Source: a bacterium
Lineage (GTDB): Bacteria > Armatimonadota > JACIXR01
Assembly (NCBI GenBank): GCA_014360495.1
Contig: JACIXR010000009.1
Coordinates: 1-64,000, forward strand
DNA: 64,000 bases
Direction of reading: 5' to 3'
Position 1 is the stretch's first letter, and the number at the start of each line of letters is the position of its first letter. The notes under the pieces are model-generated. The model ran no database searches, was not told the DNA's origin, and saw only the letters and a program-made list of their open reading frames with translations. Positions 9,857 to 39,858 of the stretch are shown here, one piece after another. The position numbers and the translations under genes are program-made.

Positions 9857-10636
9857 ATGAAGAAGAGAGGATTTACGCTGATAGAGCTGCTCGTCGTCAT
9901 AGCTATCATCGCTATTCTGGCGGCGATTCTCTTCCCTGTTTTCTCCAGGGCAAGGGAGAAGGCGAGGCAGACAGCCTGCTTGTCAAATATGAAGCAGGTC
10001 GCCAACGCGTTGATGATGTATGTCCAGGATTGGGATGAGACCTTCCCCTTTATCACCGCTTGCCCCAATGTGGAGCAGGACAAGCCGAACACAACGCCCC
10101 AGAGCCAGCTCCATCCCTACATAAAGAACGCTCAAGTTTGGGAATGCCCCTCGGCAACTACGCGGAGAACTCGTCCCTACCAGGTAGGCGCCTTTGCCTT
10201 TGATGGAGGCTGGTATTATCCCATTGACTTCGTAGGGGTGAACATCACGATAGGTTGCAACGAGGTACTGATGCCCAACCTCGCTTGCGGTTGGACAGGA
10301 CGCCCCAACAAAATGGCAGAGCTCCCTGCTCCAGCGGAAACGGTGGCGTTTGTTGATGCTCCTATGTTCTCTGGATGTGGTGGAGCGAGGGTTATCTTCG
10401 CCAATGGTTGTTGTGGTGGGCTATGTTGTCCAAGCGACCCTAACAGATTCAGGAGCTGGAGCAAGAACACCCGCCACTCGGGCGGAGATAACATCGTATT
10501 CGCGGATGGGCATGTGAAGTGGATGAACGCCATGGAGATAGCCAATAAGTGCGGATATCTGTTCAGTGCGACGAAGAACGATTGGCGTGTAGGGAAGACT
10601 TGGTTTGAGATTAGGGGCTTGACGGCGGTGCCATAG
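9857..10636 (+). CDS. Prepilin-type H-X9-DG protein (cysteine-rich)
   Basis: 259 residues. Residues 1-30 are a type IV pilin/pseudopilin leader and helix: basic KKRG, then [20 protein letters not shown], with prepilin-peptidase cleavage expected before F6. The C-terminal signature H-X9-DG is intact ([12 protein letters not shown]). Family members (TIGR04294, DUF1559-like) are abundant in Planctomycetes and relatives and are thought to be pseudopilin-like surface proteins; their role is unknown. A cysteine-rich loop ([19 protein letters not shown]) sits before the signature and is unusual. It has its own promoter and terminator, so it is probably monocistronic and well expressed. A second copy lies at 39064-39858. 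Confidence 0.88.
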
Positions 10637-19590: not shown

Positions 19591-19625
19591 AAAAAGGGCG
19601 ACGCCCTCCATTGGAGGGCGTCGCC
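19591..19625 (-). terminator. Terminator of the first LTXXQ gene
   Basis: Arms GGCGACGCCCTCC/GGAGGGCGTCGCC around ATT, with AAAAA (19591-19595) giving a U-tract on the minus strand. The arms are nearly the same as those of the terminator at 20386-20420, as expected for a duplicated gene pair. Confidence 0.8.
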
Positions 19626-19676: not shown

Positions 19677-20312
19677 CTACCTCCACCATACGCCAGGTCT
19701 TCTAGGCCACGCTTGCCTCCACCACGCGCCAGGTCTTCTAGACCACGCTTGCCCCCACCATGCGCCAGCACTGGGTCTCCTCAGCCAAGCCTGCCTTTGC
19801 CATCTGCCAGCATTGGGTCCTCCAAGCCACATTTGCCTCTGCCATCCGCCTCCCATTCTCCCACTTACAGCTCTACCGCCAACCAAGCCCGGAGCCAGAA
19901 TAACCACCTGCGCCTTGGGTGGAAGCGTTCCCAGTTCCTTCTCCGTTTTCTTCAATGTAGCTAAATACTTGTTCTGTTCTTTATAGTATGTCTCAAGAGC
20001 TTTCTTTACTTCCTCGTCAGAGACCTGCTGACCGTTCTTTATATACCTTGCGAGCCTGCGTAGTTGTGCCTGAGCGGTGGCAAACTTAATGAAAGCCTCT
20101 GCGCGCTCCTTTTCTATCTTCAGTGCCAAATCCTTCTGTTCAGCTGTGAGGTTCAGGCTATCAAGGAGCTTCTCAAGATTCGTCAACCACTGCTGAATGC
20201 TCTGTCTGGGCTGGCGGGAAACCTTCTCCTGCTTATCCGCAGCGAATAGAGGAACAGTTAATAAGAGACTGGCTATGAAAACACCTAACAGCAAATAACC
20301 GAGCTTTTTCAT
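19677..20312 (-). CDS. Secreted LTXXQ (Spy/CpxP-like) helical protein, copy A, with W/R-rich repeat tail
   Basis: 211 residues with a signal peptide (1-24, ending LFAAD). The core is helical with LNLTAEQKDLALKIEKERAE, an LTXXQ-type motif; Spy/CpxP proteins are periplasmic chaperone-like stress proteins, but this assignment is weak. After KAQVVILAPG the tail is a W/R/P-rich repeat from imperfect 36- and 42-base units, unlike the glycine/lysine-rich tail of its paralogue, which suggests repeat expansion or a frame change. ATG 20312 has GGGAGGTGAT upstream and an ECF-like promoter. The paralogue is the next gene upstream. Confidence 0.75.
   Translation of the reverse strand: MKKLGYLLLGVFIASLLLTVPLFAADKQEKVSRQPRQSIQQWLTNLEKLLDSLNLTAEQKDLALKIEKERAEAFIKFATAQAQLRRLARYIKNGQQVSDEEVKKALETYYKEQNKYLATLKKTEKELGTLPPKAQVVILAPGLVGGRAVSGRMGGGWQRQMWLGGPNAGRWQRQAWLRRPSAGAWWGQAWSRRPGAWWRQAWPRRPGVWWR
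19681..19836. repeat. 36/42-base tandem repeats within a coding tail
   Basis: Two 36-base units (19681-19716, 19717-19752) differ at few positions and are followed by two diverged 42-base units (19753-19794, 19795-19836). As all units are multiples of three, every frame stays periodic: W/R/P-rich in the annotated frame, and G/K-rich (GGGKRGLEDLA) in another. Confidence 0.85.
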
Positions 20313-20333: not shown

Positions 20334-20361
20334 ATTGACGAACAAATAATGGGGCAAGTTC
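20334..20361 (-). promoter_or_regulatory. ECF/sigmaE-like promoter of copy A
   Basis: On the minus strand GAACTT (20361-20356), 17 bases ending in CG, then TCAAT (20338-20334). The layout GAACTT-N15-CG-TC matches the E. coli sigmaE pattern and the promoter of the paralogue at 21001-21028, while the spacers are unrelated. Confidence 0.6.
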
Positions 20362-20385
20362 AAATCAAAGCTTTATTGATTTAAT

Positions 20386-20420
20386 AAAAAGGGCGACGCC
20401 CCCAACGGAGGGCGTCGCCC
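20386..20420 (-). terminator. Terminator of the second LTXXQ gene
   Basis: Arms GGGCGACGCCC (20391-20401) and GGGCGTCGCCC (20410-20420), with AAAAA at 20386-20390 forming the minus-strand U-tract. Confidence 0.85.
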
Positions 20421-20444
20421 AAAATCAGCTCTCAAACTCTATCC

Positions 20445-20981
20445 TTACTTGCCCGCTGGTCCCTTTCCCTTCGGTCCCTTCCCCATCGGTCCTTGAAGCT
20501 GACCGAAGCCTCCTCCCACTCTACCACCTACAGCTCTACCACCAGCGAAGCCCGGAGCCAGAATAACCACCTGCGCCTTAGGTGGCAGCGTTCGCAGGCT
20601 CCTCTCGGTGTTCATCAAGGTCCTGAAATAGTTTGCTTGTTCTTTGTAATATGTTTCAAGAGCCCTCTTCGCTTCATCGTCTGAGACCTGCTGACCGTTC
20701 CTTATATCCCTCGCGAGCCTCCCGAGCTGTGCCTGGGCAGTTGCGAACTTAACGAAGGCATCCGCGCGCTCCTTTGCTATCTTCAGAGCTAAATCCTTCT
20801 GCTTTGAAGTGAGATTCAGACTATCCAGGACTTTCGCAAGACTCGTCAGCGCCTGCTGCATACCTTGCCCGGGTTGAGCGGGCACCCTTGCTCCCCTCTG
20901 TGCCTGCTGGGAAAGAAGGGGAACCGCCACCAATAGGGTGGCGAGGAAAATACCTAAAAGCAAATAACCGAACTTCTTCAT
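20445..20981 (-). CDS. Secreted LTXXQ (Spy/CpxP-like) helical protein, copy B
   Basis: 178 residues from ATG 20981, chosen because CACCTCC (20988-20994) gives GGAGGTG seven bases upstream; an earlier in-frame ATG would overlap that site. Signal peptide about 1-25. The core LDSLNLTSKQKDLALKIAKE and the LPPKAQVVILAPG segment are almost the same as in copy A; the tail ends PMGKGPKGKGPAGK and is short and basic. Likely a periplasmic envelope-stress or metal-responsive protein, inferred from the LTXXQ-type motif and ECF-like promoter. No partner sensor or anti-sigma gene is nearby. Confidence 0.75.
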   Translation of the reverse strand: MKKFGYLLLGIFLATLLVAVPLLSQQAQRGARVPAQPGQGMQQALTSLAKVLDSLNLTSKQKDLALKIAKERADAFVKFATAQAQLGRLARDIRNGQQVSDDEAKRALETYYKEQANYFRTLMNTERSLRTLPPKAQVVILAPGFAGGRAVGGRVGGGFGQLQGPMGKGPKGKGPAGK

Positions 20982-21000
20982 AAAAATCACCTCCATATTT

Positions 21001-21028
21001 TTAGACGATAAAAGGCGAGGAAAAGTTC
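21001..21028 (-). promoter_or_regulatory. ECF/sigmaE-like promoter of copy B
   Basis: On the minus strand GAACTT (21028-21023), 17 bases ending in CG, then TCTAA (21005-21001), followed about 11 bases later by GGAGGTG. Very close to the sigmaE consensus GAACTT-N16-TCTGA/TCTAA. Confidence 0.65.
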
Positions 21029-39063: not shown

Positions 39064-39858
39064 TCAATCCGCGGGACCACCCCCAAACTGAGACCAAAAG
39101 GTGACATTGTCGCTCCGCCGGAATGGGTCGAAGAGCTTTCCACAATTGTTAGCGATAGACATGAAGTTCATCCACTTGGCGTGTCCGTCGGCAAACACGA
39201 GGTTTTCACCTTCCACATGGCGAGTATTGCTCTTCAAGCGTCTTTCCGGTATACACGCAGCCTGACAAATATTGGCATATACAACTCTTCTACCTCCACA
39301 GGAGCCAAATGTGGCAGCATCTGCAAAAGCAACGGTTTCGGCAGGGGTTACCACCTCGGATTGGCGAACGGGTTTTTGGGACCAGTCGCATAGAGCATTC
39401 CGCATAAGAGGTTCTGCATAGGCGACGGTCACAAAACTTCCAACAAAGTCCTTTGGGAAAGTCCAAGGTGGATTGGGATACCATGGCACTACCGCACCAT
39501 CGGGACGATGCCACGCCGCCACGAGAGGTGCTTGGACAGCTGAAGACGCTGACGGGCAGTTCCATACTTGAGGATTTTTGATATAGGGATGTAGTTGTCC
39601 TTGGGGCAAGTCATTTGGAGAACCTGCTCCTGGAGCGCTACAAGAGGTTACGAATGGATATGTTTCATCCCAATCTTGAAGATACATCATAAGAGCCTGT
39701 CCTATTTGTTTCATATGAGAAAGGCAGGCGGTTTTTCTTGCCTGCTCTCTTGCCCGACTGAAGACAGGGAAGAGAATCGCTGCTAGGATGGCAATGATAG
39801 CTATGACCACCAGCAATTCAATTAAGGTAAAACCTCTTTTAAGTCTTTCCATTAACAT
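39064..39858 (-). CDS. Prepilin-type H-X9-DG protein, second copy
   Basis: 264 residues. Leader ERLKRG, then [20 protein letters not shown], followed by [25 protein letters not shown] as in the first copy, and an intact [12 protein letters not shown] signature. Two cysteines (NICQAAC) sit where copy 1 has its richer cluster. Shine-Dalgarno AGAGGTG precedes ATG 39858. It has no obvious link with its glycan-enzyme neighbours except that such proteins are frequent in these lineages. Confidence 0.87.

Follow-up and report, generated by a model that had tools for sequence, protein, structure and literature searches.

In enterobacteria, sigmaE, an extracytoplasmic function (ECF) sigma factor of the envelope-stress response, drives envelope genes together with a noncoding arm of small RNAs (sRNAs; MicA, RybB and MicL), which cut the synthesis of abundant envelope proteins (summarised in PMC11005410). 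We have analysed a 64,000-nucleotide stretch of a genome from an uncultured lineage of the Armatimonadota (contig JACIXR010000009.1, positions 1 to 64,000; 'the window' below), in which two paralogous minus-strand genes (genes 1 and 2) each lie behind an ECF-type promoter element. The remainder of this 2.55 Mb genome (G000) and the genomes of two sister species of the genus (G001 and G002) were covered by pattern and model searches and by selected stretches. Together these point to what is probably an envelope-stress regulon under an ECF sigma factor, with a noncoding arm that would silence a family of prepilin genes. As in the enterobacterial system, the sigma factor would control envelope genes and, in addition, sRNAs that are predicted to lower envelope-protein synthesis. 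The differences are that the targets here would be prepilins and not outer-membrane proteins, that pairing would extend over ~25-40 nt within the coding region, that the sRNA is present in many copies and that no Hfq was found in the three genomes.

The nearest precedent outside the Proteobacteria is provided by FoxI and FoxJ of Fusobacterium nucleatum, sigmaE-dependent sRNAs that act on envelope proteins in an organism with neither Hfq nor ProQ (PMC11005410). Unlike the RNAs described here, they use short C-rich seeds, have the porin FomA as their main target and are not antisense to a protein-family motif (PMC11005410). Pairing inside a coding region is known from MicC, which pairs with codons 23-26 of ompD, although MicC has one main target, a short seed and a dependence on Hfq (PMC11347162). 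Antisense RNAs on pilin genes have been described in Synechocystis (PilR; PMC5924778) and in Neisseria (the pilE antisense RNA; PMC4402397). Each of these lies opposite its single target, whereas the RNAs described here are encoded elsewhere in multiple copies, with many targets and ECF promoters. With respect to the promoters, the available part of a study of Streptomyces coelicolor sigmaE gives many targets with AAC-N16/17-CGTC promoters upstream of envelope genes, the layout seen here in an unrelated organism, and describes no comparable sRNA arm (PMC6767563). A literature search on DUF1559 sRNAs and on trans-encoded anti-pilin sRNAs returned no precedent. The promoter pair by itself is of a known kind; what would set this system apart is an sRNA arm that picks out the members of a protein family by the codons of their conserved motif.

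The initial annotation had read the two minus-strand signals as GAACTT-N17-TCAAT and GAACTT-N17-TCTAA. Both are present and, when the preceding CG is included, become GAACTT-N15-CGTC; the -10 is better given as CGTC(A/T)A. They lie 24 nt ahead of the gene 1 ATG (at 20312) and 22 nt ahead of the gene 2 ATG (at 20981). These two occurrences in the window compare with 0.09 expected from dinucleotide shuffles (1 of 100 shuffles reaches two). The elements have the ECF promoter layout (an AAC -35 and a CGTC -10 at a fixed distance of 16-17), which identifies them, from their sequence, as ECF sigma-factor promoters. Equating them with Escherichia coli sigmaE promoters, as initially proposed, is too specific, since AAC-N16/17-CGTC also fits many Streptomyces sigmaE targets (PMC6767563).

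The divergence of the two spacers beside conserved elements had been taken as an argument for selection. The two proteins are 66% identical paralogs and, because near-identical terminator hairpins follow both genes, the whole promoter-gene-terminator unit must have been duplicated; that the two window copies resemble each other thus says little, by itself, about selection. It is the orthologs in the two other species that settle, as judged by sequence comparison, that the elements are real. G001 and G002 have one copy each of the unit, with a promoter just ahead of the Shine-Dalgarno sequence (GAACTTTTTAATTTCATAATTCGTC, N15, in G001; GAACTTTTTTGCTTTTAATTCGTC, N14, in G002) and with spacers unrelated to those of the window.

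Bare counting proved uninformative as a test of enrichment: GAACTT-N14..16-CGTC occurs at 17 sites in G000 and its reversed control also at 17, so that by this measure the element is no commoner than chance, a possibility that the initial annotation had raised. Free spacing proved decisive. AACTT-N5..35-CGTCWA occurs at 62 sites in G000, with a sharp peak of 15 sites at N15 against an off-peak mean of 1.54 per spacing (spacings 14-16 left out; P~1e-10); the pattern was picked after the window sites were known, and without those two, 13 remain at N15. A weaker excess is seen in G002 at spacings 14-15. The promoter assignment is borne out by the three-species footprint, this spacing peak, the position of the elements upstream of envelope-protein genes and the existence of an ECF/anti-sigma operon with the same type of promoter (see below).

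Four promoter sites, three in G000 and one in G001, have no gene behind them (Table 1). These loci were found by the promoter alone. Each carries a GAACTT/AAACTT-type promoter, followed by ~32 nt and a strong GC-rich hairpin that mostly has a T-rich tail; the gene that comes next is oppositely oriented. The predicted standalone transcripts are ~80-110 nt long. In all four, the ~32-nt segment is antisense to the codons for EQARK[A/T]ACLS. A covariance model built from these four identified seven more full-length elements, giving 11 in the three species. Each of the seven has an ECF-like promoter 10-16 nt ahead of the pairing core, a terminator hairpin and the same antisense motif, which is often longer. 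Most of these later elements have a variant promoter, AACAT-N14-[A/C]GTCTAA, whose spacing is closer to that of the promoter of a second ECF gene, ECF-B (AACAW-N14/15-CGTC), and these are probably read by a second ECF factor, perhaps ECF-B itself. Where the model matched in part only (positions ~29-66), the hit was mostly one of the listed prepilin genes read in antisense; the seven checked outside the target list were likewise all prepilin genes. The model gave no hit better than E=0.2 in the other 58 genomes, outside the genus, and the first four sRNA stretches have no family match in Rfam.

Two other origins for these loci were considered and rejected. They are not pieces of larger repeats (neither the flanks nor the sequences that follow the core are related among loci), nor are they parts of prepilin genes (the peptide on the opposite strand is prepilin-like over the core only). 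Identity among the 11 RNAs is 80% in the pairing core compared with 27% after the core, 51% in the promoter spacer and 33% in the upstream flank. Core differences fall mostly where the codon change in the target is synonymous: when assigned to the target reading frame, third positions account for 209, first positions for 46 and second positions for 10 (pairwise counts among the 11 RNAs, so that differences of common origin enter more than once). Variation of this kind, that of a coding sequence read from the opposite strand, is, as far as the sequences tell, what would be required of a noncoding RNA that pairs with the members of a gene family. The promoters and their conservation, the terminators, the complementarity and this codon-position pattern can all be read directly from the DNA.

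The motif concerned, (RA)REQARKAACLS, lies just past the membrane helix in DUF1559/prepilin-type proteins. A codon-degenerate search retrieved 17, 7 and 18 genes of this type in the three genomes. Predicted duplexes reach -54 kcal/mol, compared with a mean best value of about -22 for shuffled sRNAs. When the window was scanned with the five G000 RNAs, the top two of 7,994 tiles lay in its two prepilin genes, both of which match PF07963 (prepilin N-terminal domain) and PF07596 (DUF1559) above cut-off. Hfq (PF17209) was not found in the three genomes (~97% completeness) and was found in 5 of 14 controls; its absence from the results fits the long, near-perfect pairing.

The regulator had been predicted to lie elsewhere in the genome, and a candidate, ECF-A (G000:C4:221960-222481), was indeed found there. 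Directly after it lies a zf-HC2 anti-sigma gene (E=6.5e-12), an order kept in the three species. Its own promoter, TAACTT-N15-CGTCTAAA in G000 and G002 and TAACTT-N15-TGTCTAAA in G001 (-10 cores CGTC, CGTC and TGTC, respectively), matches the window elements apart from the first -35 base. With a scoring matrix built from non-sigma sites, the ECF-A promoters score 19.8, 15.3 and 19.8 of 22.4 (G000, G001 and G002), and those of ECF-B 8-12.6. ECF-A, apparently autoregulated and encoded with its anti-sigma factor, is most likely the factor that reads the window elements. ECF-B was set aside as regulator of the window genes since its autopromoters (TGAACAW-N14/15-CGTC) fit worse than those of ECF-A, but it is kept as a rival.

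That the loci are transcribed, that ECF-A reads them, that the sRNAs repress and that envelope stress is the trigger we infer from these features, and on this basis we propose the following scheme. Envelope stress would free ECF-A from its anti-sigma factor. ECF-A would then transcribe a coding arm (the two window proteins, the DUF2330, DUF4139, phosphodiesterase and lipoprotein genes, and its own operon) and also sRNAs of ~80-110 nt, each consisting of a first ~25-40 nt antisense to (RA)REQARKAACLS and a GC-rich intrinsic terminator. A second sigma factor may feed the same silencing arm through the variant-promoter sRNAs. Acting in trans, the sRNAs would bind the mRNAs of dozens of prepilin genes around codons 30-42 and stop their translation into protein or remove them; by analogy with MicC on ompD, pairing inside the coding region could trigger decay or block translation. 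The result would be a lighter load of secreted pilin-like proteins on the stressed envelope. It is likely, in our judgement, that these are multi-copy, ECF-controlled sRNAs that act in trans through a pairing region antisense to the DUF1559/prepilin motif, with one RNA recognising dozens of mRNAs and its evolution constrained by those targets codon by codon, and that they are the noncoding side of a response to envelope stress in a lineage without detectable Hfq. If so, an uncultured lineage has an envelope-stress regulon with a noncoding arm, and the targeting principle is to read a protein-family motif through its codons, for which the literature searched holds no precedent. This offers a testable account of how a bacterium could lower the expression of dozens of prepilin paralogs together, and it would imply that the sRNA logic of cutting an abundant envelope-protein load recurs with unrelated targets, apparently without Hfq.

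Several observations weigh against this interpretation. Of the 15 sites at spacing 15, four fall within genes and one other (C6:83580) is doubtful; the remaining sites lie upstream of genes or of sRNA-like transcripts in the correct orientation. The predicted start site of the window genes falls at or next to the Shine-Dalgarno sequence, giving a leader of ~20 nt. ECF-A's own promoter has TAACTT as its -35 where the window elements have GAACTT, and in G001 and G002 this TAA also looks like a stop codon, that of the gene before it. Low duplex energies (-47 kcal/mol) are also given by one or a few tiles of the window that lie outside prepilin genes. Finally, the pairing segment is self-complementary in part (ACAAGC...GCTTGT), and the fold that this allows might make pairing slower.

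That the window elements are not promoters at all, being similarity left over from a tandem duplication, with a housekeeping promoter such as TTGCCC-N17-TATATG driving the genes, is very improbable. The two units are a tandem duplication that includes the terminator, the raw counts equal those of the reversed control and gene 1 has a readable sigma70-like pair ahead of it. This pair, however, has no counterpart at gene 2, and neither the conservation of the element with divergent spacers in two other species nor the genome-wide spacing peak would be expected. A larger share of doubt concerns the reader of the elements: the regulon may be real but read by ECF-B or ECF-C, which we regard as unlikely although the strongest of the competing possibilities. 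ECF-B has an autoregulatory GAAC-N16/17-CGTC promoter in all three species and retains the G of GAACTT that is missing from the ECF-A promoter, and ECF-C adjoins a prepilin gene in G001 and G002. Against this, the ECF-B promoters lack CTT after GAA and have lower scores, while ECF-C has no matching promoter of its own across all three species.

The main alternative to selection for pairing is the recent independent capture of prepilin fragments. Only the coding part would then be functional, and the antisense-pilin transcripts would be relics of prepilin genes, picked up in inverted orientation downstream of promoters and without any part in regulation. Recent capture from different prepilin genes would give the same codon-position pattern. 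But in each of the 11 elements, from three species, a promoter has been kept 10-16 nt ahead of the core and a terminator directly behind it, with flanks and terminators that are unrelated in sequence, and the same ~10 codons would have to have been captured each time without the adjoining parts of the prepilin gene. We therefore consider capture improbable, and prefer silencing of the prepilin family by ECF-controlled sRNAs.

Table 1. Coordinates of the features of the window and of the three genomes (outside the window, contig:position)
Feature	Genome	Location	Strand	Remarks
ECF promoter, gene 2, GAACTT-N15-CGTCTAA	Window	21004..21028	-	Sequence; orthologs; genome-wide spacing peak
ECF promoter, gene 1, GAACTT-N15-CGTCAAT	Window	20337..20361	-	Sequence; orthologs; genome-wide spacing peak
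Gene 2, Spy-like	Window	20445..20981	-	178 aa; small exported helical protein; one LTxxQ motif; no significant family match
Gene 1, Spy-like	Window	19677..20312	-	211 aa paralog; W/R/P-rich repeat tail
Terminator hairpin 3' of gene 2	Window	20391..20420	-	Followed by T run on minus strand; read from sequence
Terminator hairpin 3' of gene 1	Window	19597..19625	-	Near-identical to that of gene 2; read from sequence
DUF1559/prepilin gene, predicted target	Window	9857..10636	+	Pairing ~9953-9988; top duplex, -58.7 kcal/mol
DUF1559/prepilin gene, predicted target	Window	39064..39858	-	Pairing ~39713-39760; second duplex, -48.6 kcal/mol
Putative sRNA locus, by promoter	G000	C2:248652
Putative sRNA locus, by promoter	G000	C2:254333	-
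Putative sRNA locus, by promoter	G000	C15:20405
Putative sRNA locus, by promoter	G001	C2:53057
Putative sRNA element, covariance model	G000	C10:41738
Putative sRNA element, covariance model	G000	C15:24138	-
Putative sRNA element, covariance model	G001	C31:2065	-
Putative sRNA element, covariance model	G002	C81:26442	-
Putative sRNA element, covariance model	G002	C81:26211	-
Putative sRNA element, covariance model	G002	C137:53	-
Putative sRNA element, covariance model	G002	C7:25
Type I phosphodiesterase behind element	G000	C3:47436
DUF2330-type proteins behind element	G000	C4:234374; C4:236088 (N16); C2:44670		n=3, one sub-threshold
DUF4139 protein behind element	G000	C1:370227
ARPP-1 protein behind element	G000	C2:273348
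Lipoprotein behind element	G000	C10:80887		N14; relatives likewise at G001:C2:1639 and G002:C105:1297
Hydrolase behind element	G000	C12:54983		Likewise at G002:C85:2689

Most proteins of the coding regulon (Table 1) start with a signal or lipoprotein peptide, as judged by eye, and several of the element-gene pairings recur in the sister species. The proteins encoded by genes 1 and 2 had been taken for LTXXQ proteins. This membership is not supported: neither matches PF07813 (LTXXQ/Spy) at E<=1, this profile has no match anywhere in G000, and NCBIfam gives no LTXXQ-family match for either. A sequence search of the PDB returned nothing significant. The AlphaFold core (residues ~40-140) is helical, with three confident helices. 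Its best natural fold match in the PDB is CnrX, which is weak and not significant (E=0.35). CnrX is a periplasmic metal sensor, a relative of Spy and CpxP that works with an ECF system. Like the Spy/CpxP/CnrX proteins, the window proteins are small, exported and helical, with one LTxxQ motif each (LTSKQ/LTAEQ) and an envelope-stress-type promoter; they differ from them in that neither profile nor fold comparison gives a significant match. The window proteins may plausibly have a Spy-like role. The C-terminus of gene 1 (window 19677-19860, minus strand) is an expanded W/R/P-rich repeat (RRPGAWWRQAW...) that is present neither in gene 2 nor in the orthologs.

A further sRNA-like locus on G002:C81 (L244, minus strand, offset 186) has a promoter (TAACAAG-N-AGTCTAA) and a terminator hairpin. 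Here a C-rich CTCCACCTCCTTTG stretch, which resembles an anti-Shine-Dalgarno sequence, replaces the antisense-prepilin segment. Both kinds of stretch are present at G000 C2:248652 and G002 C81:26442.

The conserved ECF-B autopromoter (TGAACAW-N14/15-CGTCA; gene at G000:C1:149884, G001:C23 and G002:C91) lies only ~10 nt before the ATG, which suggests that the mRNA is leaderless. A third ECF gene, ECF-C, adjoins a divergent prepilin gene at G001:C4:167723 and G002:C1:69501. A fourth ECF-like gene, ECF-D (G002:C39 and G001:C8), is followed not by an anti-sigma gene but by a BamA-like outer-membrane assembly gene. Two prepilin-type genes are themselves located behind ECF-like promoters (G002:C94:4741-4791, and L146, minus strand, offset 1098). 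The first of these has a diverged target motif (AREKGRQAVCQS) and might escape the sRNAs.
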